A stretch of 64,000 bases of DNA from Moheibacter sediminis (GTDB taxonomy: Bacteria; Bacteroidota; Bacteroidia; Flavobacteriales; Weeksellaceae): the NCBI RefSeq assembly GCF_900176425.1, contig NZ_FWXS01000010.1, forward strand, positions 62,001-126,000, given 5' to 3'. The notes under the pieces are model-generated. The model was given only the letters and a program-made list of their open reading frames with translations. It was not told the origin of the DNA and made no database searches. Of the stretch, positions 182-17,878 are shown piece after piece (position 1 is the stretch's first letter; each line of letters starts with the position of its first letter). The position numbers were made by a program, and so were the translations under genes.

Positions 182-1237
182 TTATAAAAATTCAAAACCT
201 TTAACAGTATTTGCCGGAGCAACCTGTACATTTAAAACTTTTCCATTTGCATCCATTATAAACACTACAATCTCTAATTTGTTTACGTCTAAAGAGGTAT
301 AATTACTTGTAGCTAAATTAGGCAGTTCTATAATGTTTCCATACATAGATTGTCCCGATGGTAAAGCTTTACCAGCAATATTAGGGGTAGCATACCCGCG
401 AAGCGTGTGATTATGAACAAAATTTACGAGGGGATTTGTACCTCCGAATAATCCATTACTACCAGTGTAATAATTTACCTGATTTTCAACTAATCCGTTT
501 TCTAAGATATAAATACCATATTTTAAAGATTGATTGTAGTTAGCTCCAAAAGCAAAACGAACACTTACAGTACCATTATTTTCATCTAATTGAGAAGAAA
601 TAGAAATACCGATGGTTGAATTGGCATTGATTTTACTGGTTACCTCTTCGAGATTTTCATTTTCATTTATTGACCATACTGCTGACCTGTTGATAAACGC
701 TGTCGGATAACCTCCAAAATTAGGAACCAGGTTCTCTAATTGTGCATATTCTGGTATCTGGAATGAGTCACCACTATGAACACCAATAGGAACTACTTTA
801 TTAGTAATCTCGCTTAATTTTACAAAAGCATCCATTACACGAGGACAGTATCCGCACCATGTTCCGGTAAAGTCTTCTACCATAACTTTATGAGTAAATT
901 TGTTTTTTTCAGAAACTGCCAAAGAAATAGTATTACTCGTGGAATTGTCCTTTTGAGCGTACACTTCATAAGTTCCCGGTTCTGTTGGTGAAAATTCATT
1001 TCCTATAATAGGTGTGTCATTTACATAAATAGTGCTGGAAGAAGTTATATCCTCGTTTTGACTATTTTCCACAGTAAATTCAAATTTTCCCTCACCAAAA
1101 GGTATTGATGTTTCAGAGAGATTTGATGTAAGTTCAATAGTATTATTTGAACCACTTCCTTCATCGTCGCTACACGAATAAACAGCAAAAGTGAAAAGTA
1201 ATACCATTACAAATCGGATAGATTTTTTGTAATTCAT
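182..1237 (-). CDS. Omp28-like thioredoxin-fold lipoprotein (CGYC)
   Basis: A 351-residue protein with a lipoprotein signal (hydrophobic segment 8-20, lipidation Cys22 in YSC, then an acidic Ser/Asn stretch). Residues 33-110 look like an Ig-like beta domain and from about 117 an Omp28-type thioredoxin-like domain follows, with the motif EDFTGTWCGYCP (Cys128, Cys131) and later a cis-Pro-like GGYPTAFINR. It is probably anchored in the outer membrane or at the surface. A redox role is inferred from the CxxC; Omp28 family members have no well-defined reaction. The gene is a diverged paralogue of the lipoprotein at 2735-3862 with the same domain order. It is divergent from the lysine aminotransferase gene across a 120-bp AT-rich spacer. 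Confidence 0.85.
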   Translation of the reverse strand: MNYKKSIRFVMVLLFTFAVYSCSDDEGSGSNNTIELTSNLSETSIPFGEGKFEFTVENSQNEDITSSSTIYVNDTPIIGNEFSPTEPGTYEVYAQKDNSTSNTISLAVSEKNKFTHKVMVEDFTGTWCGYCPRVMDAFVKLSEITNKVVPIGVHSGDSFQIPEYAQLENLVPNFGGYPTAFINRSAVWSINENENLEEVTSKINANSTIGISISSQLDENNGTVSVRFAFGANYNQSLKYGIYILENGLVENQVNYYTGSNGLFGGTNPLVNFVHNHTLRGYATPNIAGKALPSGQSMYGNIIELPNLATSNYTSLDVNKLEIVVFIMDANGKVLNVQVAPANTVKGFEFL

Positions 1238-1317
1238 AGAGTTTATTTTAATTGGTTAATTAATTCTTAACGTAACTTCTTTATAAATATTGTGTTAATA
1301 ATTTAATGAAGAATCAT

Positions 1318-1325
1318 TAAGTTTG
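1318..1325 (+). promoter_or_regulatory. Putative -7 promoter box for lysine 6-aminotransferase
   Basis: TAAGTTTG matches the Bacteroidota -7 consensus TAnnTTTG exactly and lies 32 bp before the start codon. I see no TTG at the usual -33 spacing (the nearest, at 1290-1292, is 25 bp away), so this is a partial match. Confidence 0.45.
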
Positions 1326-1357
1326 CAACGCGCAAAAATCAAGCAATACAATAATAT

Positions 1358-2656
1358 ATGGAAGTAGCAACACAAACCGTACATGACCGATTGGGTAAAC
1401 ACATCTTGGCAGATGGTTATCCGATGGTAATGGACATAGAAAAATCACACGGTTCTTATATCGTAGATCAAAACGGAGACGAATACCTGGACATGTTCAG
1501 CATGTTTGCTTCCGCTTCAATTGGTTACAACCATCCGCATTTGGTTAGAAATATTGAGTTTTTAGGAAAAATGGCAATCAACAAACCAACCGTTTCTGAT
1601 GTTTATACAGAAGAATATGCAGAATTTGTAGATACATTCAGCCGTGTGGCGATCCCTGCTGAATTGCAATATGCATTCTTTGTAGAAGGCGGAGCCTTAG
1701 CTGTTGAAAATGCTTTGAAAGCTGCTTTTGACTGGAAAACAAGATTGAACAAATCAAAAGGAATAGACAAAGAAGCCGGTGGCGTAATTCATTTTCAGCA
1801 GGCATTTCACGGACGTTCAGGTTATACTTTGACATTGACCAATACAAAAGACCCGAGAAAACACATGTTTTTCCCGAAGTTCAATTGGCCAAGAATAATT
1901 AATCCGAAAATGTACTTTCCGGAAACGCAAGAAGGTTTAGAAAAAACTATTGAACAAGAAAAATTGGCGGTTGAACAAATCATAAATGCTTTGACTGAAA
2001 ATCCAAATGAAATCGCTTGTATCATTATAGAAACCATTCAGGCAGAAGGTGGAGACAATTATTTCAGAAATGAATTTTTCAAAGAATTGAGAAGAATCTG
2101 TGATGAACATGAAATCCTTTTCATTTTAGATGAAGTTCAGACCGGAATAGCTTTGACAGGTAAAATGTGGGGGTACCAGAACTATGATGTGATTCCAGAT
2201 GTGATTTCATTCGGAAAGAAAACTCAGGTTTGTGGAATTTTGGCAAACAAAGAAAAATTAGATATCGTACCTGATAATGTATTCAAAGAATCAAGCCGAA
2301 TCAATTCTACTTTCGGTGGAAACTACATCGATATGCTTCGCTTCAAATTGATTTTGGAAGTAATCGAACAAGAAAATTTATTGGAAAATGTGAACGTTCA
2401 GGGTGAATTCTTGAAAGGAGAATTGGATAAAATTGAATCTGATTTTGCAAACGTTACCAACGTTCGCGGAATGGGACTTTTCTTGGCTTTTGATTTGCCT
2501 TCAGATGCAGAAAGAAATGAAGTTGTGAAAAAAGCAATGGAAAAGAAATTAATCCTTTTGACTTGTGGCGAAAGAACGATTCGTTTTCGTCCGCACTTGA
2601 ATGTTACACGCGAAGATTTAGAAAAAACAATCACCATCGTAAGAGAAATTTTATAA
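1358..2656 (+). CDS. lat: L-lysine 6-aminotransferase (PLP, class III)
   Basis: Transfers the epsilon-amino group of L-lysine to 2-oxoglutarate, giving glutamate and allysine, which cyclises to piperideine-6-carboxylate. The 432-residue length and the sequence fit the lysine epsilon-aminotransferase family: N-terminal DRLGKHILADGYP, a substrate loop around NSTFGGNYIDMLR, the cofactor Asp in LDEVQTG (Asp258), and the Schiff-base lysine in SFGKKTQVCG (Lys287 or Lys288). The enzyme is cytoplasmic. No partner such as an aldehyde dehydrogenase or saccharopine enzyme lies nearby, so the catabolic or biosynthetic route cannot be read from context. The gene stands alone with its own terminator, between two Omp28 lipoprotein genes. 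Confidence 0.93.
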   Translation: MEVATQTVHDRLGKHILADGYPMVMDIEKSHGSYIVDQNGDEYLDMFSMFASASIGYNHPHLVRNIEFLGKMAINKPTVSDVYTEEYAEFVDTFSRVAIPAELQYAFFVEGGALAVENALKAAFDWKTRLNKSKGIDKEAGGVIHFQQAFHGRSGYTLTLTNTKDPRKHMFFPKFNWPRIINPKMYFPETQEGLEKTIEQEKLAVEQIINALTENPNEIACIIIETIQAEGGDNYFRNEFFKELRRICDEHEILFILDEVQTGIALTGKMWGYQNYDVIPDVISFGKKTQVCGILANKEKLDIVPDNVFKESSRINSTFGGNYIDMLRFKLILEVIEQENLLENVNVQGEFLKGELDKIESDFANVTNVRGMGLFLAFDLPSDAERNEVVKKAMEKKLILLTCGERTIRFRPHLNVTREDLEKTITIVREIL

Positions 2657-2680
2657 TAAATTTAGAATTTATAAAGCATA

Positions 2681-2710
2681 AAAAAGTCCCGAATCAATTC
2701 GGGACTTTTT
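2681..2710. terminator. Rho-independent terminator, bidirectional
   Basis: Perfect 13-bp arms aaaaagtcccgaa (2681-2693) and ttcgggacttttt (2698-2710) enclose a 4-nt loop. It lies between convergent genes lat and the Omp28 lipoprotein at 2735. Confidence 0.9.
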
Positions 2711-2734
2711 GTTTTCAATATTGTGAGACTTGAA

Positions 2735-3862
2735 TTAATCAAAATCTTGGTTCGTACCAACCTTCGCACTTTGAACATTGATTACACCTCTAGTTTTAAT
2801 CTGGTTTCCATTCCCTAAAACAAATGCAACAACGCTCAAATTAGAGGCATTAGTTACATTAGCTGGAAGCGTTACATTAAACGGTTTTGTATAAACAGCT
2901 CCATTTGAAATCTGGTTTGTCGGGATGATATCACCATAAATGTCAGTGAATGATTTTAACAGGACATGGTTGTGTGTAAACCCTTGTATTGGATGAGGCA
3001 TGCTTGAGTAATTATATTCAGGATCACAATTAGATCCAGATCCGCTGAAATAATTATATTGATTATGTATCAAACCATCTTCCACCAAAACTACCACCAA
3101 GCGTGCTTCCGGAACAACATCCGTGGAAAATCCAACTTTTACATTGATGCTTAAGCTGCTACCGCTTAGAGAAGAATTAATTGCTAATCCCAACGGAGCA
3201 GATTGATTTAAATAAGTATCGACTTGAGGATAATAAACTTCCCGCGTATTAGGGCAAGGGTGTTGTTGCTGAAATTGATCTAAAGTGTGAATTCTATTGA
3301 TTTTACCGGCAGGAGCAGCTCCAGCCCCGTAATTAGCAGTACTCGCCATATCTAAAGCGTACTCATAAACCCATGGGTCTTGTGGAGTGCCCTGCGTATG
3401 TATTGCAATTGGAATTATTTTGTCACTGTAATCAGTTAAATAATGCATAATAGAATTCATTCTTGGACACCATCCACACCAAGTTCCGGTATAGTCTTCC
3501 AATAATACTTTTTGAGTGTACTGTGACGGTATGACATCAGTAGAAGCAAACGTACTTGTGCTGCTGTTCTTGCCATTGTAAGATGCATAAACTTCATTGG
3601 TTTCATTTACTTCAGTCGGTATAAATGAGCTCCCTTCGATCTGCTGACCGTTTACAAAATAAACCGCATCAGAGGTAATGTCTCCTGCAATACTTGATGA
3701 AGCCGTAAATGTAATTTGAGACCCTACCGGAACCGACATTGCACTCATTGTCATTTGAATCGATTCGTCTGCTAAATCTTCCTCAGTTCCACAACTTAAC
3801 AGTAAGCCTGAAAATAAAGCGAGAAAAATAAATGTGTGTGTTAGATTATTTAATTTTTTCAT
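2735..3862 (-). CDS. Omp28-like thioredoxin-fold lipoprotein (CGWC)
   Basis: A 375-residue protein with a lipoprotein signal (GLLLSC, Cys24). Residues 35-105 form an Ig-like module with the same phrase order as the protein at 182-1237 (YFVNGQ..SFIPTEV). An Omp28-type thioredoxin-like domain follows from about 118 with EDYTGTWCGWCP (Cys129, Cys132). Unlike its paralogue it carries extra Cys residues (HPCPNTREV and GSNCDPE), which could form further disulfides. Expected location is the outer membrane or surface. It diverges from the TlpA gene at 3921 across a 58-bp spacer holding a near-palindromic gctaatttagc that could serve promoters on both strands. Enzymatic function is unknown; thiol-disulfide exchange is inferred. 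Confidence 0.85.
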   Translation of the reverse strand: MKKLNNLTHTFIFLALFSGLLLSCGTEEDLADESIQMTMSAMSVPVGSQITFTASSSIAGDITSDAVYFVNGQQIEGSSFIPTEVNETNEVYASYNGKNSSTSTFASTDVIPSQYTQKVLLEDYTGTWCGWCPRMNSIMHYLTDYSDKIIPIAIHTQGTPQDPWVYEYALDMASTANYGAGAAPAGKINRIHTLDQFQQQHPCPNTREVYYPQVDTYLNQSAPLGLAINSSLSGSSLSINVKVGFSTDVVPEARLVVVLVEDGLIHNQYNYFSGSGSNCDPEYNYSSMPHPIQGFTHNHVLLKSFTDIYGDIIPTNQISNGAVYTKPFNVTLPANVTNASNLSVVAFVLGNGNQIKTRGVINVQSAKVGTNQDFD

Positions 3863-3920
3863 AAATTAATATTAAATTTTTGCTAATTTAGCCCAATTAA
3901 CACACAAATAAAAAATTATA

Positions 3921-4412
3921 ATGAAAAAATTAATTACACTTTTCAGTCTAATTCTGGCGATTGGGGTATTGTCGGCACAAGAGACTGAATTTCCGGATTA
4001 TTCGATTCCGGATTTGAAAGGAAGCAAAATAGATATTAAGTCTATTTCAAAAAATGAAGGAAAACCTGTTGTTTTAGCATTTTGGGCTACTTGGTGCGGA
4101 CCATGTATTTTGGAATTGAATGCCATCAATGATAAGTTTGATGATTGGAATGCTGAAACTGAATTTAAATTCTATGCAGTGTCTGTAGATGATTCAAAAA
4201 CAGTAGGGAGAGTTCAGCCGATGGTCAATGGAAAGGGTTGGCCTTTTGATATTTTATTGGATACCAATAATGAATTGAAAAGACTATTGAATTTCTCTAC
4301 ACCTCCTTACGTTGTAGTGATAAAAGATGGGAAAATCGTTTATAAACACATTGGTTACCAGCCTGGTGCGGAAGATGAGCTTTACGAAAAAATCAAAGAA
4401 TACTCTAACTAG
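3921..4412 (+). CDS. TlpA-family periplasmic thioredoxin-like protein
   Basis: A 163-residue thioredoxin-fold protein with a Sec signal peptide (cleavage after LSAQ, residue 20). The AhpC/TSA-Redoxin-type fold has a classical active site FWATWCGPC (Cys59, Cys62) and a cis-Pro region FSTPPYVVV. Family members reduce disulfides in the periplasm. It starts a co-directional group with the DUF6029 gene (76 bp on) and the Omp28 T9SS cargo gene, which suggests these act together. What supplies its electrons (for example a DsbD/CcdA-type protein) is not in the window. Confidence 0.9.
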   Translation: MKKLITLFSLILAIGVLSAQETEFPDYSIPDLKGSKIDIKSISKNEGKPVVLAFWATWCGPCILELNAINDKFDDWNAETEFKFYAVSVDDSKTVGRVQPMVNGKGWPFDILLDTNNELKRLLNFSTPPYVVVIKDGKIVYKHIGYQPGAEDELYEKIKEYSN

Positions 4413-4416
4413 TTTT

Positions 4417-4463
4417 CAGAAAATTTATTGATTAAATTGGATTATAAATTAATCAAAATTCTG
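4417..4463. other. Intergenic hairpin between tlpA-like and DUF6029 genes
   Basis: The arms cagaa...ttgattaa (4417-4435) and ttaatcaa...ttctg (4449-4463) can fold back. There is no U-run after it, so it is less likely a terminator than an RNA-processing or stability element between two genes of one transcript. The role is inferred. Confidence 0.35.
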
Positions 4464-4488
4464 AGAATAAAATTATAATTATAAACAC

Positions 4489-6159
4489 ATGAAACAAATT
4501 TATGGTTTGATGCTTGCCTTTATAGCATCATCTGTTTCTTACGCACAAATTGATTTAGGAGCGGGAACTTTTTCTGGAGGAATTGAATCAACTTCTCAAT
4601 GGTACCAAACAGATGAAGATTTAGGATTTGAACAGCCAAACGACCCTTTTCGTTCTAATAATTACATAAGATTAGACTACAATTACGGAAAATTTTCAGC
4701 AGGTTTACAGTACGAAGCGTACTTACCAAGTGCATTACTAGGATATTCTGACAGATTTAATGATAATAAAATAGCAACTTATTATGTAAATTACAAAGGA
4801 GAACACTTAGATATAACTGCAGGTAATTTTTATGAGCAGTTTGGTAGTGGTATGGTTCTTAGAAGCTGGGAAGATCGCCAAATCGGGATTAATAATTCAA
4901 TCCGTGGTGTGCGTGTAGCTTATACGCCAAATGATTTTACCACAATTAAAGGATTGATTGGGAAGCCAAGGCTTGGTTTTGAAACTACGGAAGGAACCGT
5001 TGGTGGGTTAGACATTGAAACCAACATAGTCCGTTTATTTGACAAAGAGAATTATTCTAATTCTGTAACTGCTGGTTTCAGCTATGTAGGGCAACAGGAA
5101 AACTATACAGGAGCAATAGAAGATTTCCCGCAAAGTACAAATAATTATTCTGCAAGATTAGGATACTCAGGTAATTCAGGAGTTTACATCAATGCAGAAT
5201 ATGTTTACAAAAGCGAACGACCTTCTTTTTTCAGTCAAGTGCCCACCGAACAATATTATGATGGAAATGGTTTATTGGTTAATCTAGGCTATTCCACAAA
5301 AGGTTTCGGAATCAATACTACTTTCCGCAGATTGGAAAACATGGGAATTTTTGCACAAAGGAGTTTGAGTGAACCAGCCGAAAATTTATTTAATGAAGGA
5401 ATTGTAAATTATTTACCTGCACTGACCCGTCAACATGATTATTTATTGACAAACATATATGTATATCAGTCGCAGCCTAACATTAATTTTATAGAAAAGG
5501 AAGCAGGAGAAATTGGTGGGCAGTTGGATATTTACTATAACATGCCAAAAGGAACATTGTTGGGTGGTAAATACGGAACTAAATTGGCAGCAAACGCTTC
5601 TTACTGGAATGGTCTGAATGCAGAATTCAATGAAGCCGGAACCGAATACACTACAAACTTTTTTGATTTTGGACGAAAATTTTTCCACGATGTAAATTTT
5701 GAAGTAAATAAAAAATGGACAGATAAATTCTCATCCATCATTACTTATATGCATCAATACTATGACAAAGCAATCGTAGAAGGCGGAAATTACAGTCATA
5801 TTATTGCCAATGTAGTAGTTGGGGATTTCTTATATAAATTTAATCCAAAGAATTCAGTCCGATTTGAATTACAGCACCTTCAGACAAAAAGAGATCGTAA
5901 GAATTGGGCAGCTGCTTTAGTGGAATATAACTTGAACCAAAGATGGAATTTCTATGTAGGAGATAACTACAATTATGGAAATGATGATGAAGAAGAAAGG
6001 TTCCATTATTATATGGTAGGTGGAAGTTATGCCAAAGAATCTACACGTGTTTCCATGAATTACGGTCGCCAAAGAGGTGGGTTGATTTGTGTAGGAGGTG
6101 TGTGTAGGTATGTTCCTGAAAATACAGGATTTACACTTACATTAGTTAAAACATTTTAG
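4489..6159 (+). CDS. DUF6029-family putative outer-membrane beta-barrel
   Basis: A 556-residue protein with a Sec signal peptide (ending SVSYAQ, residue 20). The mature part is rich in alternating hydrophobic and aromatic strands and Asn/Tyr/Gly turns (for example NYIRLDYNYGKFSAGLQYEAY), and it ends in a strand with terminal Phe (GFTLTLVKTF), as outer-membrane barrels do. I assign it to DUF6029 from recall of that family's start and its TlpA/Omp28 neighbours; no biochemical role is known to me. The C-terminal GGLICVGGVCRYVP holds two Cys in a possible surface loop, which is unusual for a barrel and of interest next to CxxC proteins. It sits between tlpA-like and omp28-like genes. Confidence 0.7.
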   Translation: MKQIYGLMLAFIASSVSYAQIDLGAGTFSGGIESTSQWYQTDEDLGFEQPNDPFRSNNYIRLDYNYGKFSAGLQYEAYLPSALLGYSDRFNDNKIATYYVNYKGEHLDITAGNFYEQFGSGMVLRSWEDRQIGINNSIRGVRVAYTPNDFTTIKGLIGKPRLGFETTEGTVGGLDIETNIVRLFDKENYSNSVTAGFSYVGQQENYTGAIEDFPQSTNNYSARLGYSGNSGVYINAEYVYKSERPSFFSQVPTEQYYDGNGLLVNLGYSTKGFGINTTFRRLENMGIFAQRSLSEPAENLFNEGIVNYLPALTRQHDYLLTNIYVYQSQPNINFIEKEAGEIGGQLDIYYNMPKGTLLGGKYGTKLAANASYWNGLNAEFNEAGTEYTTNFFDFGRKFFHDVNFEVNKKWTDKFSSIITYMHQYYDKAIVEGGNYSHIIANVVVGDFLYKFNPKNSVRFELQHLQTKRDRKNWAAALVEYNLNQRWNFYVGDNYNYGNDDEEERFHYYMVGGSYAKESTRVSMNYGRQRGGLICVGGVCRYVPENTGFTLTLVKTF

Positions 6160-6212
6160 TATATTAGTAGGGTCAATATTTTTAAATAAACACACAAGAA
6201 ATAATTATTATT

Positions 6213-7883
6213 ATGAAAAACATTTTTACCAAGTTTTTGCTGGTGGGATTAGCTCCATTAGCAGCTTACGGGCAAACCATAGTAAGCACTACACCTGAGA
6301 ATAGAAAAGTTATTCTAGAGGAATTTACAGGTATAAACTGTGTATATTGTCCTCAAGGACATGTGATAGCTGAACAGATTTTAGAAAACAATCCCGGAAA
6401 AGCCTTCGCTATCAATATACACCAAGGAGGTTTTGCAACACCGCAAGGGGGGCAGCCTGATTTCCGTACACCTTTTGGAAATGCAATTGCAAATCAAACA
6501 GGTCTTACAGGATACCCTTCCGGGACAGTTAACAGACATGTATTTTTTAACAACAAAACTATTTTAGACAGAGGTCAGTGGGCGAGTTCAGCAAATCAGT
6601 TGCTCAACTTACCTTCTTATGTCAACATGGCTGTAGAAGCAAGCGTTGACATTGATACGCGTGTGTTAACTGTCCATGTAGAATCTTATTATACAGGAGA
6701 CAGTCCGCAATCAACTAATCGCTTAAATGTTGCTTTGTTGCAAAACAACACTACAGGGCCTCAAACAGGAGGTAATCAAGGTAACAACTATAACCACATG
6801 CGTAGATTAGTTCATTTGATTACCGGTCAATGGGGAGAAGAAGTTACTACAACAACTACAGGTAGTTTTGTAAACAAAAATTATACTTATACGATTCCTG
6901 AAAGTTACAATAACATACCTGCAATTTTATCCAATTTGGAAATTGTAGTTTTTATGTCTGAATCACAACAGGAGATAATTAGTGGTAATGGAACATTTCC
7001 TGCGCTTATAGGTCTTGAGCATGAAAATGATGCTTCGATAAAACAAATACGTGAGATTCCAAAATCTTGTACTGGAAATGCTTCACCAATTGTAGAAATT
7101 GAAAATTTAGGAGGAAATCTTATTACTTCTTTGACTTTTAATTATTCAATCAATTCGGGAGAACCATTAAGCTATACTTGGACAGGAACAATTGCTCCTT
7201 TGGTAACTAAAGAAATTCAACTTCCTGAAATTGTATATAGTGCCCAAGAAACAAATACGTTGAGTGTATCTATTCAGGATGATGAGAATTCAGAAAATAA
7301 TCAGCTTTCTCTAGATTTCTTAAATGCGATTTCTACAGAGTCTACAACTCTTACTCTTGAAATCCATACTGATGGTTTTGGAAATCAGACACGTTGGAAT
7401 ATTCGTAACTCAAATAACCAAACAATAAAGTCAGGTTATGGATATGGAAATAACCAAACCTACACTGAAACAATAGACTTACCTGCAAATGACTGTTACA
7501 CACTTAATGTAATAGATGTATCAAATAATGGTGGAGCAGCCATATCTTTGAAAGATGAAAACGGAGTGATATTAAGCGAATCTGACGGAAATTATGGATC
7601 AGGATACTCTGAGGATTTTGCAAAAGGTGCGTTAGGAGTTGATGATCTTAGTTCATTAGAGATCAGTGTATATCCAAACCCAACTACAGGAATTGTAAAT
7701 ATCAATTCAAAAGTACCAAATGCTCAAATTGAAGTATTTGATGCTTCAGGAAGAAAAATGTATTCTGTGAACTCAACTAAACAATTAACGACAATAGATT
7801 TATCATCTTATGGTAAAGGAATCTATTTAGTTAAAGTTGCTGAGGGTAAAAATATCATTACTAAAAAAGTAATAGTGAAATAA
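6213..7883 (+). CDS. Omp28-like thioredoxin-fold T9SS cargo (CVYC), copy 1
   Basis: A 556-residue secreted protein. Signal peptide 1-20 (AAYGQ); Omp28-type thioredoxin-like domain about 25-270 with EEFTGINCVYCPQGH (Cys43, Cys46) and a cis-Pro-like TGYPSGTVNRH; middle beta-sandwich region about 285-370; a second beta-sandwich about 375-465; and a T9SS type A sorting domain about 484-556 (VYPNPTTGIVNI ... KKVIVK). It should be exported across the outer membrane by T9SS. The protein at 8098 is a close tandem paralogue with the same domain order. The start is 53 bp after the DUF6029 stop, consistent with co-transcription, and a strong terminator follows. Confidence 0.88.
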   Translation: MKNIFTKFLLVGLAPLAAYGQTIVSTTPENRKVILEEFTGINCVYCPQGHVIAEQILENNPGKAFAINIHQGGFATPQGGQPDFRTPFGNAIANQTGLTGYPSGTVNRHVFFNNKTILDRGQWASSANQLLNLPSYVNMAVEASVDIDTRVLTVHVESYYTGDSPQSTNRLNVALLQNNTTGPQTGGNQGNNYNHMRRLVHLITGQWGEEVTTTTTGSFVNKNYTYTIPESYNNIPAILSNLEIVVFMSESQQEIISGNGTFPALIGLEHENDASIKQIREIPKSCTGNASPIVEIENLGGNLITSLTFNYSINSGEPLSYTWTGTIAPLVTKEIQLPEIVYSAQETNTLSVSIQDDENSENNQLSLDFLNAISTESTTLTLEIHTDGFGNQTRWNIRNSNNQTIKSGYGYGNNQTYTETIDLPANDCYTLNVIDVSNNGGAAISLKDENGVILSESDGNYGSGYSEDFAKGALGVDDLSSLEISVYPNPTTGIVNINSKVPNAQIEVFDASGRKMYSVNSTKQLTTIDLSSYGKGIYLVKVAEGKNIITKKVIVK

Positions 7884-7903
7884 ATTTTTAAACAGAAAAT
7901 TTC

Positions 7904-7936
7904 AAAAGCAGTCAATCAATTCGATTGACTGCTTTT
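7904..7936 (+). terminator. Rho-independent terminator
   Basis: The perfect 14-bp arms aaaagcagtcaatc (7904-7917) and gattgactgctttt (7923-7936) are followed by a T-run. This ends the tlpA-like/DUF6029/omp28 unit. Confidence 0.92.
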
Positions 7937-8033
7937 TTTATACACTCATGAATAATTGAATTTGTTAAAATTACTCATAATGCGCTGTTTAGTTAAAACA
8001 ACATAACTTTAAGTTATAATAAAAAAAAATTAA

Positions 8034-8041
8034 TATATTTG
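8034..8041 (+). promoter_or_regulatory. Putative -7 promoter box for Omp28 cargo copy 2
   Basis: TATATTTG is an exact TAnnTTTG match 56 bp before the start codon and downstream of a strong terminator, so the gene needs its own promoter. The leader then carries the motif aattaacacacaaat (8074-8088), which also precedes the gene at 3921. Confidence 0.55.
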
Positions 8042-8097
8042 TGTTTATGTAGATTTTATACATACTTTAACATAATTAACACACAAATTACAATTTT

Positions 8098-9792
8098 ATG
8101 AAACAAAATTTTACCAGATTTATTTTTGCCGCTTTGTTGCCGTTGGCTGCATATGGGCAAACAATTGTAAGCACTACTGCAGAGAATAAAAAAATTATTC
8201 TTGAAGAATTTACAGGAATAAACTGCGTTTATTGCCCTCAGGGACATGCGATTGCCAAAGCAATCCAAGACAATAACCCGGGAAATGTATTTTTAATTAA
8301 TATTCACCAGGGAGGTTTTGCAACCCCACAAGGAAGTCAACCAGATTTTAGAACTTCATTTGGAAATGGTATTGTAAATCAATCTTATTCCGGAGGTGGA
8401 TTCGGATATCCTTCCGGAACAGTTAACCGTCATGTTTTTCCAGGGAGAGAAATGACAGCAGATGGTACTACAGCTTTGGATAGAGGTCAGTGGACTGCAG
8501 CTGCTAATGAATTGCTTACTGAAAATTCTTATGTAAATGTTGCTTTGGAATCTAGCATCGATTCTCAATCACGTATAATGACTATAACTGCTGAAATTTA
8601 TTATACAGGAAATAGTCCGGTAAGTACTAATAAATTGAACATTGCATTGTTACAAAACAATACATTTGGTCCGCAAACGGGAGGTGGTCAAGGAAATAAC
8701 TACAACCACATGCACCGTTTGATTCACATGGTAACAGGTCAGTGGGGTGAGGAAATTACTACAACTTCTCAAGGTAATTTTGTTCAAAAAACATATACTT
8801 ATACAATTCCTGAATCCCATAACAATATTCCAATCGTTTTTGGAGATTTAGAATTGGTTGCGTTTATAGCGGAAGGTCAGCAAGAAATCATCAGCGGAAA
8901 TGGTACATCTCCTGCTTATACTAATTTGCCTTTGAACAATGATATGAGCATCAAGTCAATTAGAGAAATAACACCGCAATGTAGCGGTATGGCTTATCCG
9001 GTTATTGAAATTAAAAATAACGGTAACAATGTTTTGACAACCTTAGACATCACTTATTCAATCAATTCAGGTGCTCCACAAGTATATACTTGGACAGGTA
9101 GTTTGGGAGGTCTTCAATATGAAACTGTAACACTTCCTGGAATTCTTTACACCCAAGACGAAAATGTACTTCAAATTTCAATTCCTTCAGATGAAGATGA
9201 TTCCAATAATGTTGGGACAATCAATTTTAATGAAGCAGTTCAAACTTCGAATAATTTGATTTTATCTGTAAGAACAGATAACTGGGGAGATGAATGCTCT
9301 TGGGAAATTCTTGATTCTGCTGGTACAGTAGTTTATGAAGGTGGTCCTTACAATGGACAAAACAACCAAACATTTACTTTTGATTTAGCACTTCCTGGAG
9401 AATGTTATACATTTAAATTGTATGATGCATTTGGAGACGGTGGAGGAGCTGTTTCTCTTAAAGACAGTAATAACGTTGTAGTTTATTCAACTACCGGAGC
9501 TTATGGTGCAGGAGCCTCAGTTAATTTCTCAACAGAAGGAGTTATGGGCGTTTCTGACTTGACTGCTTCTAATGTGCAGATTTATCCAAACCCTTCAACA
9601 GGAATCATCAATGTTGAAGCTAAAAATGCCTCTTCAATTGATGTATATGATGTAACAGGAAAGAGAGTTTACTCTACTTCAAACGTTTCTCAGACTACTG
9701 CAATCAATTTGAGCGCATACGGAAAAGGAATTTTTGTAGTTAAAATTTCAGAAGGTAAAAATGTAACCACTAAAAAAGTAGTTATAAAATAA
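8098..9792 (+). CDS. Omp28-like thioredoxin-fold T9SS cargo (CVYC), copy 2
   Basis: A 564-residue tandem paralogue of the protein at 6213-7883 with the same layout. Signal peptide 1-20; thioredoxin-like domain with EEFTGINCVYCPQGH (Cys43, Cys46) and FGYPSGTVNRH; two beta-sandwich regions, the second with a GDGGGAVSLKD turn; and a T9SS type A sorting domain about 491-564 (IYPNPSTGIINV ... KKVVIK). The main length difference is an insertion near residues 95-125 around the cis-Pro loop. It has its own promoter and terminator, so the two copies may be expressed under different conditions. Secretion by T9SS is expected from the tail; redox activity is inferred. Confidence 0.88.
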   Translation: MKQNFTRFIFAALLPLAAYGQTIVSTTAENKKIILEEFTGINCVYCPQGHAIAKAIQDNNPGNVFLINIHQGGFATPQGSQPDFRTSFGNGIVNQSYSGGGFGYPSGTVNRHVFPGREMTADGTTALDRGQWTAAANELLTENSYVNVALESSIDSQSRIMTITAEIYYTGNSPVSTNKLNIALLQNNTFGPQTGGGQGNNYNHMHRLIHMVTGQWGEEITTTSQGNFVQKTYTYTIPESHNNIPIVFGDLELVAFIAEGQQEIISGNGTSPAYTNLPLNNDMSIKSIREITPQCSGMAYPVIEIKNNGNNVLTTLDITYSINSGAPQVYTWTGSLGGLQYETVTLPGILYTQDENVLQISIPSDEDDSNNVGTINFNEAVQTSNNLILSVRTDNWGDECSWEILDSAGTVVYEGGPYNGQNNQTFTFDLALPGECYTFKLYDAFGDGGGAVSLKDSNNVVVYSTTGAYGAGASVNFSTEGVMGVSDLTASNVQIYPNPSTGIINVEAKNASSIDVYDVTGKRVYSTSNVSQTTAINLSAYGKGIFVVKISEGKNVTTKKVVIK

Positions 9793-9804
9793 TTTAATAT
9801 AAAC

Positions 9805-9832
9805 AAAGCAGCTGGACTCTTTCAGCTGCTTT
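9805..9832 (+). terminator. Rho-independent terminator
   Basis: The arms aaagcagctg (9805-9814) and cagctgcttt (9823-9832) are followed by a T-run. The next start codon is only 20 bp downstream, so read-through may feed the gene at 9852. Confidence 0.85.
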
Positions 9833-9851
9833 TTCTAAAAAAAAAAGCAAA

Positions 9852-10601
9852 ATGAAAAAATTAATCTTATCAATGTTAACCGTAGTAGCTGTATCTGGAA
9901 CTTCTTATTCTCAGAGTTTTTCCATTACAGACTTAGATGGAGTTCCTTACGAAAATAATTCAGTGCATATTTTTAATGTACACGGAACTTTTGAAGACCC
10001 TATTGACGCAGCAAAATTACACTTAGTGATTAACAATATCACTGAAGCACCTATAACTGTAACTGGTCAAGTAGTTGAAATGACCAATACAGATGGTAAT
10101 TTGGCACAATTCTGTATCGGCGGACCATCTGGAAACTGTTTCTTTCCATTATTTGAAGGATCATTTTACCCAGGAGAAAACGGTGGAATTATACAGGCAG
10201 GCGGAAATTGGGGTAATTTTGATTATTTGATCAATTTAGATCCTACAGAGCTTGCAGAATACAAATTGAGATTTGTACAGTTAGACGGAAGTGGAGCTGA
10301 AATGCCAGATACTTCATTCTTTCTTACGTACAGATATGATTCTACTATGGCAGTTTCTGACTTAAATTCTATTGCAATCGCAGAAGTTTACCCAACTGTA
10401 GCAAAAGGATTTACCAATGTAACTTTGAAAGAAAACGCAGCAGTTCAGATTTTGAATGTTGAAGGTAAGTCTGTTAGATCAGTTAGCATGAAAAGCGGAA
10501 ACTCTCAGTTAGATCTTTCTGGTTTATCAAGCGGTGTTTACTGGATAGCCTTCAAAGGAGAGTCTGGAATGACTACAACCAAAAAGTTAATTGTTAAGTA
10601 A
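9852..10601 (+). CDS. Small secreted protein with T9SS type A sorting domain
   Basis: A 249-residue protein with a signal peptide ending TSYSQ (residue 21). Residues 22-165 form a beta-rich domain I do not recognise; it holds two Cys (QFCIGGPSGNCFF) and the phrase VHIFNVHGTFEDP. A T9SS type A sorting domain occupies about 177-249 (AEVYPTVAKGFTNVTL ... KKLIVK). It follows the Omp28 cargo copy 2 by 59 bp with a terminator between, and has its own terminator. Its position among redox-fold cargos suggests a shared setting but gives no function. Confidence 0.75.
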   Translation: MKKLILSMLTVVAVSGTSYSQSFSITDLDGVPYENNSVHIFNVHGTFEDPIDAAKLHLVINNITEAPITVTGQVVEMTNTDGNLAQFCIGGPSGNCFFPLFEGSFYPGENGGIIQAGGNWGNFDYLINLDPTELAEYKLRFVQLDGSGAEMPDTSFFLTYRYDSTMAVSDLNSIAIAEVYPTVAKGFTNVTLKENAAVQILNVEGKSVRSVSMKSGNSQLDLSGLSSGVYWIAFKGESGMTTTKKLIVK

Positions 10602-10625
10602 TTTATAATACAACAACGATATTTT

Positions 10626-10654
10626 AAAAGCCGTTTTCTTTGGGAACGGCTTTT
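10626..10654 (+). terminator. Rho-independent terminator
   Basis: The arms aaaagccgtt (10626-10635) and aacggctttt (10645-10654) enclose a 9-nt loop and are followed by T residues. It lies 25 bp after the gene ending at 10601. Confidence 0.88.
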
Positions 10655-10782
10655 TTATTGAATAAAAAATTAAAGTATAATCCTGACAATATGTAATATC
10701 ATTAATTATGACTGCCATTCATTTTGTTCCCAACTCAACTAAATTATATAGAAATCTTAAAATCCATAAATCACAGAACAAA

Positions 10783-10814
10783 AAAGTCCGACTCTTTAAT
10801 GAGAACCGGACTTT
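10783..10814 (-). terminator. Rho-independent terminator for the TlpA-like T9SS cargo
   Basis: The arms aaagtccg (10783-10790) and cggacttt (10807-10814) are preceded on the plus strand by an A-run, which is a U-run in the minus transcript. It lies just beyond the stop of the gene at 10835. Confidence 0.8.
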
Positions 10815-10834
10815 ATAAATTCTAAAATTTTTAA

Positions 10835-11608
10835 TTAATTCTTTACAATGATTTTCTTAGAACTGGTTTTGCCATCGACAGTAATAGTCATGATGTAAAT
10901 GCCCGAAGCAACTTTTAATCCCATTGAAATGTTTTGAGTATTATAGGAGCCGCTGTGAACGATTTTTCCAGTCATGTCATAAACCGCAATATCTGATTTA
11001 TTTGCCTCTGTCAAAGACACATTAAAGTTCCCGTCAGATATGGTAGGATATACACTATAGTTGCTATTATTAGTAAAATCATTAACACCTAATATTTCCA
11101 ATAGACCATCAGGGAAATCATCTTCAAATGTAGTCATATCTGTGATTGGCCAAATATCTGCTACTAAAAGCTTGTTATCCGGTCCGATGATACAATAAGT
11201 AGGAAATGCTGGAATCCCTAAATCTGTAATTACTGCGGGAGCACCTCCTTCAGTTCCTGCAGCAGGACAAGGTGTAAATCCGCCACTATATAATTCTTCA
11301 AATTCTTGTATAGTAGCATTGTTGTCAATAGGTGAAAGGGAAAGCATATAAACATGTTCCTGATTTTCTCCATAAGTTTCATACAATTCATAAAAATAAC
11401 GGCTTGTTTGCTGGCAAGGTCCACAATTTCTGAAAAAGAAATCTAAGAAAACGTATTTCCCAGTAGCTGTGATGTCATACAAAGTATGCTGAACTCCATG
11501 GGTATCGGTAATTGTAAAATTATCAACTACATCTCCAACATCATAATTGCTTACTTGCGCGTTGCTCAAACCGCTTACGATAAGCAGTAAAAATAAAAAT
11601 TGTCTCAT
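10835..11608 (-). CDS. TlpA-like thioredoxin-fold protein with T9SS sorting domain
   Basis: A 257-residue protein. Signal peptide 1-17 (SNAQ); thioredoxin-like domain with FFRNCGPCQQ (Cys62, Cys65) and a cis-Pro loop LGIPAFPTYCI; and a T9SS type A sorting domain about 185-257 (VYPTISDGNFNV ... KKIIVKN). The CGPC site is of the thioredoxin/TlpA type, but the sorting tail sends it outside the cell, so it is an extracellular counterpart of the TlpA protein at 3921. Two extra Cys (FTPCPAA and PTYCI) could form a structural disulfide. It is the last of six CxxC proteins in this stretch. Confidence 0.88.
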   Translation of the reverse strand: MRQFLFLLLIVSGLSNAQVSNYDVGDVVDNFTITDTHGVQHTLYDITATGKYVFLDFFFRNCGPCQQTSRYFYELYETYGENQEHVYMLSLSPIDNNATIQEFEELYSGGFTPCPAAGTEGGAPAVITDLGIPAFPTYCIIGPDNKLLVADIWPITDMTTFEDDFPDGLLEILGVNDFTNNSNYSVYPTISDGNFNVSLTEANKSDIAVYDMTGKIVHSGSYNTQNISMGLKVASGIYIMTITVDGKTSSKKIIVKN

Positions 11609-15094: not shown

Positions 15095-17878
15095 ATGAGA
15101 AAAATTTCTGCCTTAATTTTTATTCTTTTGATATCCTCCGGTTTTGGTCAGGAATTACCACCTATCATTAAATTTTCAAAAGAAATTTACAACGGAGGAA
15201 ACCAGAATTGGATGATTTCCGAGGCAGAAAATCATTTCATTTATGTCGCAAATAACAAAGGTCTACTTGAGTATGACGGCGAAAGGTGGCGTTTATATGA
15301 ATCTCCCAATAAGAGCATCATACGTTCTGTGAAAGTTGTAAAAGATAAAATATATACAGGTTGTTATCGAGAGTTTGGATATTGGAAAAAACAGTTGGAT
15401 GGTTCTTTGAAATATTTCTCAATCAGTTCAAAACTTAAGAATACAATCAGCGAAGATGAGCAGTTCTGGAATATAATTGATAATGGGGAATTTATCTTGT
15501 TTCAGTCATTGAATCACCTTTACATTTTTCATGTCAACTCTGAGAAAATCAATATAATCTCCACACAAAGTTCTATTTCTAAAGTGTTTCAAACCGGGAA
15601 AAAAATATTTTACCAAGTATATGGCGAAGGACTTTATGAAATTGTAAAAGGAGATAAAATATTGAGAAGCAATCATATTTTGTTCAAAGACTCTAAAGTC
15701 GTTTCCATATTTGAATTCAATAATAAATTTGAAATTCATTTTCAATACGAAGGTATTTATACGATGTCCGGAAATGAATTAATGAAACTGGAAACACCTT
15801 TGCCATCTGTCAATCTATATTCGAGCATTAAACTTCAAAACGGGAATTATGCGATAGGAACAGTTTCAAACGGTGTTTATATTACCGATGAGAATTATAA
15901 TTTTCTCTATCACATAGAACAGTCAAACGGGTTGTCAAATAATACAATTCTGTCGCTTCATGAAGATGTGATGAACAATCTCTGGCTTGGTTTAGACAAT
16001 GGATTGGATTGTATCAATCTCAATTCTTTTGTAATGAATTATGATGATATAAATGGTGTATTGGGGACAGTATATGCATCAGTTTTGTATAAAGGAAATT
16101 TGTATCTCGGAACAAATCAAGGTTTGTTTGTTAAAAAACATGGCTCAAATAATCCATTTGAAATGGTTTCAAATACAAAAGGACAAGTCTGGGCTCTGTT
16201 TTTATATGAAGACACCTTGTTTTGTGGACATGATCTGGGGACTTTTATTGTTGAAAATAAGACAGCGCATACCTTACAAAAAGGCAATGGTACATGGAAA
16301 TTTTCTCAAACTAAGAATCTAAGTCTATTACTCGCAGGGAACTACGAAGGATTGTCTGTTTTAGAAAAAAAGGATGGTCAATGGAAATTTAGAAACAGAA
16401 TTGAGAATTACAATATCTCGAGTCGATTTTTCGAAATTTTAAATGAAGAGATATATGTCAATCATGAATACAAAGGAATTTTTCGTTTAAAATTAGATGA
16501 TGAATTGACGAAAGTGAATTCTATATATAATTACAAGTCTCCTGAAAAAGGTAATAATTCCAGCATTGCTAAATTCAATAACACTATTTATTATGCTTCA
16601 GAAGATGGTATTTTTGAATTGATTACAAAATCAAAGAAATTTGAACGCGATGAAAAACTGAGTAAGGTTTTTGATGATGGGAACTACATTTCTGGAAAAT
16701 TAATATCACAAGAGGAAAAAGTATTATGGATTTTTGGAAAGGATAATGTAAATAGATTTGAAAGTCAGTCTCTTACGAGTGATTTTCGGCTCACTTCCAT
16801 TCCGGTCAATTATATATATTCCAATTCGCTCACAAGTTTTGAAAATATTTCTCAGCTAAATCAAAACCTTTACCTCATCGGTAATTCAAATGGTTATATA
16901 ACACTCGATTTGGATAAAATTGAAAATTATGATAATCAATTGTATCTGAATGAGGTAATTTATTTTAAAACCGGATTTGATTCAAAAAGTTTAAATCTAA
17001 CTGAAAAAACAACCCTCAAGAATAAGGAAAATAATCTGATTTTTCATTTCAGTGTGCCACAATATTCGAAGATGACCAATGTAGAATATCGTTACCGCTT
17101 AGAGGGTAGTGATGATAACAAATGGTCAGATTGGTCAGAATTATCGTTTGCTGAATTTGCAAATCTCTCATGGGGAGACTATACATTTTATGTGCAGGCA
17201 CGCGTGGGGTATAATGAACTTGATTCGATTAAACAATTTTCATTTCAGATCAGAAAGCCTTGGTTTATTTCAAATGTAGCACTCGTTATTTATTTTGGAT
17301 TATTGATTTTGCTGGCCTGGTTTATTAATAAGACATATAAAAAATATTATGAGCGACAAAATGAAAAATTAATTCAGGAAAATCACCGAAGATTAGAAAT
17401 GAGTGAGTTAGAGAGTCAGCAGCAAATTATGAAGCTGAAAAATGAACAATTAGAAACTGATTTCGAAAATAAAAGTAAAGAACTTGCAACTTCCACAATG
17501 AATATCATCAATAAAAATGAAATTCTAAATAATATCCGTGAAAACCTAGAACAGACTGACAATAAAGACCCACATATTAAAAAGGTTTTGAAAATCATTG
17601 AAGAAAACTTGAATGATGAAGATACCTGGAATTTATTTGTCGAAACATTTAATAATACAGACAAAGATTTTCTAAAAAAGATCAAAGAACTTCATCCCTC
17701 TTTGACACCAAATGATTTGAAGTTATGCGCATATTTGAGGTTAAATTTGTCTTCAAAGGAAATAGCATCTCTTTTAAATATAACAATTAGAAGTGTGGAA
17801 GTTAAACGATATCGATTGCGTAAAAAAATGCAATTGGATCATGAAGATGGTTTAGTAGAGTATATTTTACAATTATAG
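15095..17878 (+). CDS. Membrane-spanning sensor-regulator: periplasmic propeller, Y_Y_Y domain, LuxR-like HTH
   Basis: A 927-residue one-component regulator. Signal sequence 1-18 (GFGQ); beta-propeller repeats about 30-640 (for example NNLWLGLDNGLDCINLN); Y_Y_Y domain about 646-709 (VEYRYRLEGSDDNKWSDWS); one membrane helix about 726-745; a cytoplasmic coiled coil 750-830; and a C-terminal helix-turn-helix about 870-927 (SSKEIASLLNITIRSVEVKRYRLRKKM). It has no histidine kinase, unlike hybrid two-component regulators. It lies directly upstream of susC on the same strand, so it probably senses a glycan in the periplasm and controls this locus. The direct repeats at 17879-17921 just after its stop are a candidate binding site. 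Confidence 0.9.
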   Translation: MRKISALIFILLISSGFGQELPPIIKFSKEIYNGGNQNWMISEAENHFIYVANNKGLLEYDGERWRLYESPNKSIIRSVKVVKDKIYTGCYREFGYWKKQLDGSLKYFSISSKLKNTISEDEQFWNIIDNGEFILFQSLNHLYIFHVNSEKINIISTQSSISKVFQTGKKIFYQVYGEGLYEIVKGDKILRSNHILFKDSKVVSIFEFNNKFEIHFQYEGIYTMSGNELMKLETPLPSVNLYSSIKLQNGNYAIGTVSNGVYITDENYNFLYHIEQSNGLSNNTILSLHEDVMNNLWLGLDNGLDCINLNSFVMNYDDINGVLGTVYASVLYKGNLYLGTNQGLFVKKHGSNNPFEMVSNTKGQVWALFLYEDTLFCGHDLGTFIVENKTAHTLQKGNGTWKFSQTKNLSLLLAGNYEGLSVLEKKDGQWKFRNRIENYNISSRFFEILNEEIYVNHEYKGIFRLKLDDELTKVNSIYNYKSPEKGNNSSIAKFNNTIYYASEDGIFELITKSKKFERDEKLSKVFDDGNYISGKLISQEEKVLWIFGKDNVNRFESQSLTSDFRLTSIPVNYIYSNSLTSFENISQLNQNLYLIGNSNGYITLDLDKIENYDNQLYLNEVIYFKTGFDSKSLNLTEKTTLKNKENNLIFHFSVPQYSKMTNVEYRYRLEGSDDNKWSDWSELSFAEFANLSWGDYTFYVQARVGYNELDSIKQFSFQIRKPWFISNVALVIYFGLLILLAWFINKTYKKYYERQNEKLIQENHRRLEMSELESQQQIMKLKNEQLETDFENKSKELATSTMNIINKNEILNNIRENLEQTDNKDPHIKKVLKIIEENLNDEDTWNLFVETFNNTDKDFLKKIKELHPSLTPNDLKLCAYLRLNLSSKEIASLLNITIRSVEVKRYRLRKKMQLDHEDGLVEYILQL

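Follow-up and report, generated by a model that had tools for sequence, protein, structure and literature searches.

The window that we have analysed is a 64,000-nucleotide stretch of the 3.23 Mb genome of Moheibacter sediminis (contig NZ_FWXS01000010.1, positions 62,001 to 126,000), and it carries near its start a group of genes for exported proteins with thioredoxin-like folds, arranged around a predicted outer-membrane β-barrel of the DUF6029 family. The comparison of this locus with those of other genomes gives good support to the conclusion that a TlpA-type thioredoxin, the DUF6029 barrel, surface thioredoxins and a protein of the PorA family constitute a gene module that is conserved across the phylum Bacteroidota, in genomes with the type IX secretion system (T9SS). 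The genes and features of the locus, named hereafter by their first position in the window, are the following:

182..1237, minus strand: Omp28-family lipoprotein with a thioredoxin WCGYC motif (PF11551, 77 bits; lipobox YSC, followed by SDDEG)
2735..3862, minus strand: second Omp28-family lipoprotein, with a thioredoxin WCGWC motif (PF11551, 135 bits; lipobox LSC, followed by GTEED)
3863..3920, no strand: divergent intergenic region of 58 bp between omp28 (2735) and tlpA (3921), assigned by position only
3921..4412, plus strand: predicted soluble periplasmic thioredoxin of the TlpA/ResA type, WCGPC (AhpC-TSA/Redoxin; AhpC-TSA E 2.7e-18)
4489..6159, plus strand: DUF6029 outer-membrane β-barrel with 24 predicted strands (Pfam E 1.4e-204, 681 bits)
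6088..6105, plus strand: CX4C motif of DUF6029 (C534-VGGV-C539), assigned by prediction to the last extracellular loop and recognised by its invariance among homologues
6213..7883, plus strand: T9SS-secreted Omp28-type thioredoxin, NCVYC (PF11551, 68 bits; T9SS tail E 5e-15)
8098..9792, plus strand: tandem T9SS-secreted Omp28-type thioredoxin, NCVYC (PF11551, 63 bits; T9SS tail)
9852..10601, plus strand: PorA-family T9SS cargo of 249 aa, with a signal peptide, an Ig-like domain with a Cys pair and a T9SS tail (Por_Secre_tail E 2.3e-12)
10113..10139, plus strand: Cys pair C88...C96 of the PorA-family protein, invariant in the family
10835..11608, minus strand: accessory AhpC/TSA-type thioredoxin with a T9SS tail, NCGPC (AhpC-TSA and T9SS tail profiles)

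An earlier note, made from the letters of the window, had listed six CxxC genes at this locus (182, 2735, 3921, 6213, 8098 and 10835), and all six are found where it had placed them, with the export signals that it had described, i.e. lipoboxes in 182 and 2735, a signal peptide without a lipobox in 3921 and T9SS tails in 6213, 8098 and 10835; the identity of the neighbouring barrel as DUF6029 is likewise confirmed by the Pfam match. The membership has been revised at two points: 9852, which the note had left out, carries a T9SS tail and is part of the module, while 10835, which the note had counted among its six genes, is matched by a close homologue in the same position in just two of the other loci examined (L146 and L174) and is accessory to the module. 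The T9SS tails of 6213, 8098, 9852 and 10835 score over the cut-off (PF18962/TIGR04183) and SprA is found in the same genome, so these proteins can be counted as T9SS cargo. The genes at 2735 and 3921 are divergently transcribed, and in related genera the orthologues of 182 take the position of the divergent lipoprotein; the residues that follow the lipobox cysteine in both lipoproteins presumably resemble the surface-lipoprotein signals of Bacteroidota, which would expose 182 and 2735 at the cell surface. According to the Omp28 profile (PF11551, curated cut-off 34.9 bits), the genome contains five Omp28 genes, four of which lie inside these 10 kb, a density that is higher than chance, even though 6213 and 8098, which are 55% identical, are a tandem duplicate. 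The fifth gene (L007, G000:C8:10904-11446) belongs to a 645-aa frame outside the cluster.

Our surveys of co-occurrence cover 395 Bacteroidota genomes (the phylum set) and 148 genomes of the same family (the family set), and the comparison of gene order is based on 80 named loci with the best matches to DUF6029 (PF19494), mostly from Flavobacteriia; the Fisher tests across genomes are not corrected for phylogeny. The earlier note was prepared to give up its proposal if the genes did not co-occur elsewhere; they do co-occur and they stay adjacent. A clear DUF6029 match is found in 77 of the 395 genomes of the phylum set, with Omp28 also present in 76 of these 77 (Fisher 6e-72), while Omp28 is found without DUF6029 in only seven of the 395 genomes, mostly through weak matches; in the family set, DUF6029 occurs in 18 of the 148 genomes and Omp28 scores above the cut-off in the same 18. 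This distribution is patchy, which argues against simple descent. In 77 of the 80 named loci, the gene immediately 5' of DUF6029 is that of TlpA (median gap in these loci, 4 bp), the other three loci being cut by contig ends; Omp28 lies within 10 kb of DUF6029 in 75 of the 80. In the usual order, an Omp28 lipoprotein gene is divergent from TlpA-DUF6029, followed by the genes of T9SS-secreted thioredoxins and of a PorA-family protein, and reduced versions consist of Omp28, TlpA and DUF6029 alone. Among the 126 open reading frames (ORFs) with a T9SS tail that are located within 4.5 kb of DUF6029, 57 encode thioredoxins and 47 encode PorA-family proteins (together 104 of 126). The T9SS itself is carried by 97 of 98 DUF6029 genomes, and SprA/Sov is present in 303 genomes of the phylum set. 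No DUF6029 was found in viral contigs.

The surface slots of the module can also be occupied by redoxins of other kinds. Family f24 has no Omp28 and encodes a distant DUF6029 group with the motif CTSGICY (L108, L109, L110 and L112): in three of these four loci, TlpA-DUF6029 is followed by a redoxin lipoprotein (CPHC or CTHC) and by a redoxin with a T9SS tail, and in the fourth there is one redoxin; the Omp28 profiles do not recognise the f24 redoxins. Several Flavobacterium loci have a TlpA-like protein in the T9SS slot instead. Since unrelated redoxins occur in the same slots, it appears that the slot requires an external thioredoxin rather than one particular family.

The barrel itself contributes a conserved cysteine pair. 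The AlphaFold2 (AF2) model of DUF6029 is a 24-strand barrel (predicted local distance difference test score, pLDDT, 92.8; predicted TM-score, pTM, 0.87), and every full-length sequence that we have examined contains the motif C-x-x-G-[VI]-C, 17-22 residues before the C-terminus: it is present in 45 of 45 sequences of the first set, in the more distant phylum set including f24, and in all 80 named loci, while other cysteines in DUF6029 are rare and not conserved. If the N- and C-termini are both periplasmic, as they are in barrels assembled by BAM, strand parity would assign the CX4C to the final loop on the outer side; the motif lies in a tight hairpin formed by strands 531-535 and 538-542, which should bring C534 and C539 opposite one another. 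Among the loops, the one that contains the motif (529-544) shows the highest conservation (3.92, vs 2.27 for the strands), with the loop 115-137 coming next (3.42); the outer loops of typical porins, by contrast, vary. The invariance of the CX4C lends strong support to the idea that DUF6029 takes part in the proposed redox system. Matches of the DUF6029 profile to RecA in the PDB were discarded, as they contained no matched stretch.

The thioredoxin-like fold that the earlier note had assigned to the Omp28 proteins is borne out by the AF2 model of 2735 (pLDDT 87.9), which superimposes on P. gingivalis HBP35 (5Y1A) with a Z of 24.1 and a root-mean-square deviation of 2.4 over 221 residues; as modelled, Omp28 is a thioredoxin domain combined with a β-sandwich. 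The best solved relatives of the Omp28 profile are HBP35 (E 1.7e-14) and P. gingivalis Omp28. Conservation of the CxxC among the orthologues, on which the note had also staked its proposal, is nearly complete: of the 97 Omp28 proteins encoded in the named loci, 96 retain the motif and only one, from a truncated frame, lacks it, and in the 45 lipoprotein sequences of the 2735 type the lipobox cysteine, the CxxC and the cis-proline (Pro184) are all invariant. The statement that Omp28 proteins have no defined reaction was too strong, as a Cys-dependent insulin-reductase activity has been measured for HBP35, the closest relative of solved structure, which is a surface thioredoxin secreted by the T9SS (PMC2907840); by likeness to HBP35, the Omp28 proteins of the window may be thiol reductases. 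Two candidates were set aside: the apparent selenocysteine in an Omp28 match of genome G177 (one TGA), which is an ordinary stop codon, and Paraprevotella clara 00502, a protein named Omp28-related and needed for trypsin degradation, which was not used since its published model consists of WD40 and Ig domains.

Gene 9852 brings a second invariant cysteine pair, Cys 88/96 being present in 46 of 46 members of its family. The profile of this family finds the N-domain of P. gingivalis PorA (PDB 6KJK) with an E of 1e-4 and with the Cys pairs aligned; the homology rests on the profile, because single-sequence matches are weak (the single PorA fragment against single sequences reaches an E of 0.02 only). 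On this profile evidence, we assign 9852 to the family of P. gingivalis PorA and to the module. The PorA N-domain profile matches 20 of the 395 genomes, all of which also have DUF6029 and Omp28 (Fisher 7e-16), and distant PorA relatives with pairs of the CFxxCF type fill the same slot in other families. PorA has been published as restricted to Porphyromonas; the consecutive locus tags of porA (PG2172) and of the omp28 lipoprotein gene (PG2173) indicate that the two are neighbours in P. gingivalis (PMC9722745). Three Bacteroidales families were searched directly with the 6KJK fragment for the porA locus of P. gingivalis, with no match, but these families probably do not include the species. In the DUF6029 locus L113, which also has several Omp28 genes, the region 6866-8350 encodes a T9SS-type protein in which three PorA-like Ig domains stand in tandem, each of them carrying a Cys pair of the CFxxCF type.

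The periplasmic member of the module is also uniform: a lipobox is absent from all 77 TlpA proteins of the named loci, and their CxPC is conserved. Gene 3921 scores below the NCBIfam cut-offs for the named TlpA, ResA and DsbE (best, a ResA subfamily, with 61 vs 170 bits), and going by its sequence we call it only TlpA-like. The genome also encodes DsbD, outside the locus, and VKOR. In two other genera of the same family, a full-length DsbD gene lies directly 3' of DUF6029 on the same strand (L033:6964-9114, L035:7150-9213 and L036:17914-19980), an arrangement that favours a reductive flow, in a small sample.

Module membership, adjacency, the invariance of the Cys pairs, the homology to PorA and the replacement in the surface slots are observed, and together with the predicted folds they suggest to us, with about an even chance of being right, a thiol relay across the outer membrane, which leads from DsbD through TlpA and DUF6029 to the surface thioredoxins and PorA. 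In such a relay, the inner-membrane DsbD would reduce the periplasmic TlpA (3921), which would exchange disulfides with C534/C539, the sole conserved Cys pair of the barrel; DUF6029 would then hand the equivalents to the thioredoxins of the outer face, i.e. the Omp28 lipoproteins (182 and 2735), the T9SS-secreted 6213 and 8098, and the accessory 10835. The surface Omp28 thioredoxins could reduce or isomerise disulfides on PorA, on T9SS cargo or on external targets, and 9852, with its own invariant Cys pair, may be a dedicated surface client or a redox-sensing output. Slightly short of an even chance, in our estimate, is the more specific proposal that the CX4C of DUF6029 swaps disulfides with TlpA and with the surface Omp28 and PorA proteins, powering reductases outside the cell, with PorA sensing the redox state there. 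The earlier note had joined DUF6029 and the thioredoxins in a relay: the idea that the barrel takes part has been strengthened, while the exchange steps between the proteins, the passage of electrons by way of the barrel and the reductive direction of the flow are what we infer.

Several points weigh against the relay. Its weakest step is the one where TlpA would have to reach a CX4C located in an extracellular or lumenal loop; the linkage to DsbD is seen in three loci of two genera only, and since this link is sparse and the window's own genome also encodes VKOR, the flow may be oxidative; the T9SS thioredoxins are absent from several loci (L037-L039, L041); further Omp28 copies lie outside the locus in many genomes that have the module; and the relay is read from genes, sequences and predicted structures.

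The main rival, which we regard as rather unlikely, is a dedicated disulfide maturation, where TlpA and Omp28, as foldases or reductases reserved for this task, make or proofread the single disulfides of DUF6029 and PorA, and the barrel is a pore, receptor or anchor through which no electrons cross the membrane. It accounts well for TlpA, which is always directly 5' of DUF6029, and it agrees with the single conserved Cys pair in each of DUF6029 and PorA, given that a disulfide between the two strands of a hairpin may serve structure only; LptD is a barrel with disulfides that depend on Dsb enzymes. What it leaves unexplained is the near-obligate presence of active-site thioredoxins, even non-homologous ones, in the surface lipoprotein and T9SS slots: these external proteins speak against maturation, because a folding catalyst would be needed in the periplasm and not outside.

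Less probable still is that the module is mainly a redox sensor for the T9SS, controlling the thiol state of PorA, with DUF6029 as a transmembrane signal relay. P. gingivalis PorA feeds the PorXY-SigP pathway and binds PorV-Sov, properties that 9852 may share by likeness, as a PorA relative; its deletion lowers the expression of T9SS genes, and the factor that mediates between PorA (outside) and PorY (inside) is missing (PMC7712824). The occurrence of DUF6029 and Omp28 in all 20 PorA-profile genomes agrees with this, while the presence of a PorA-family gene within 10 kb of DUF6029 in only 28 of the 80 named loci does not, and no regulatory gene was recognised among the recurring neighbours, which were not exhaustively annotated. 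Sensing through PorA could go together with the thiol relay.

We consider it quite unlikely that DUF6029 is a pore through which a polysaccharide, or PorA itself, is exported, with the thioredoxins serving the pore or its cargo. In the literature searched, DUF6029 appears in one paper, as a possible polysaccharide porin, similar to Wzi-like barrels by HHpred (PMC9603273), and its AF2 model resembles the usher barrels FimD/PapC (Z 17-18) and AlgE, the top Foldseek match being MtrB (6r2q_B); these matches are a generic barrel similarity with low TM-scores and are not taken as evidence of function. In favour of an export pore, PorA reaches the surface without the T9SS translocon; against it, the only strongly recurring neighbour families are those of the module, and no other loop of the barrel is as conserved as the Cys loop. 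Ordinary clustering, i.e. duplicated Omp28 genes (such as the tandem 6213/8098) lying by chance near an unrelated barrel, is hardly credible, as it is contradicted by the phylum-wide co-occurrence and adjacency and by the replacement with non-homologous thioredoxins.

Other genes of the window lie between or beyond those of the module. An L-lysine 6-aminotransferase gene (1358-2656, plus strand; TIGR03251, 616 bits) is located between the two Omp28 lipoprotein genes; no such gene was found beside the module in the loci of related genera that show the usual order, and it is unrelated to the module. Downstream of the cluster, 15095-17878 (plus strand) encodes a protein of 927 aa that looks like a sensor, with a part outside the cell, a single membrane helix and a C-terminus resembling a DNA-binding domain; a similar ORF occurs at the same place in L031.

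Our literature search returned no description of these genes as one system: each part belongs to a known family, and what is new here is their assembly, the CX4C of DUF6029 and the link to PorA. The families of HBP35 and PorA are now brought into one phylum-wide module, centred on an uncharacterised barrel in which one Cys pair is invariant. HBP35 (PG0616/PGN_0659; 5Y1A) is, like 6213 and 8098, a T9SS-secreted protein, found at the surface and with an Omp28-like thioredoxin architecture, but it has been studied as a single hemin-binding protein, with no barrel, TlpA or electron source described; a known electron source is what surface thioredoxins of this kind have so far lacked. P. gingivalis PorA (PG2172/PGN_0123; 6KJK) shares with 9852 the signal peptide, the Ig-like domain, the T9SS tail and the length (about 246-249 residues), but has been published as a regulator, with no thiol role and no link to DUF6029 or TlpA described, and has stood as an orphan T9SS signal protein. 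The pneumococcal Etrx1/Etrx2 with SpMsrAB2 (PMC3914529) are surface thioredoxin-family lipoproteins with a redox partner that serve resistance to extracellular oxidative stress; they differ in belonging to a Gram-positive organism with no outer membrane to cross, no T9SS and no barrel. The DsbD/CcdA-TlpA pathways (ResA, CcmG) also use a periplasmic WCxPC thioredoxin, and DsbD stands beside DUF6029 in two genera, but the known pathways end in the periplasm, whereas the partners in the module are an outer-membrane barrel and surface thioredoxins. The porin-cytochrome conduits of the MtrCAB type likewise take electrons across the outer membrane with a large barrel, but through a haem wire inside it, while the DUF6029 module has no CxxCH-bearing cytochrome and would work with thiols only, the structural likeness being generic. 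To our knowledge, no system that conducts thiol equivalents through the outer membrane has been described, and the relay, if true, would be categorically new. The module offers a concrete, testable route across this membrane and a function for DUF6029, and it may explain how bacteria with the T9SS manage the disulfides and the redox state of their surface.

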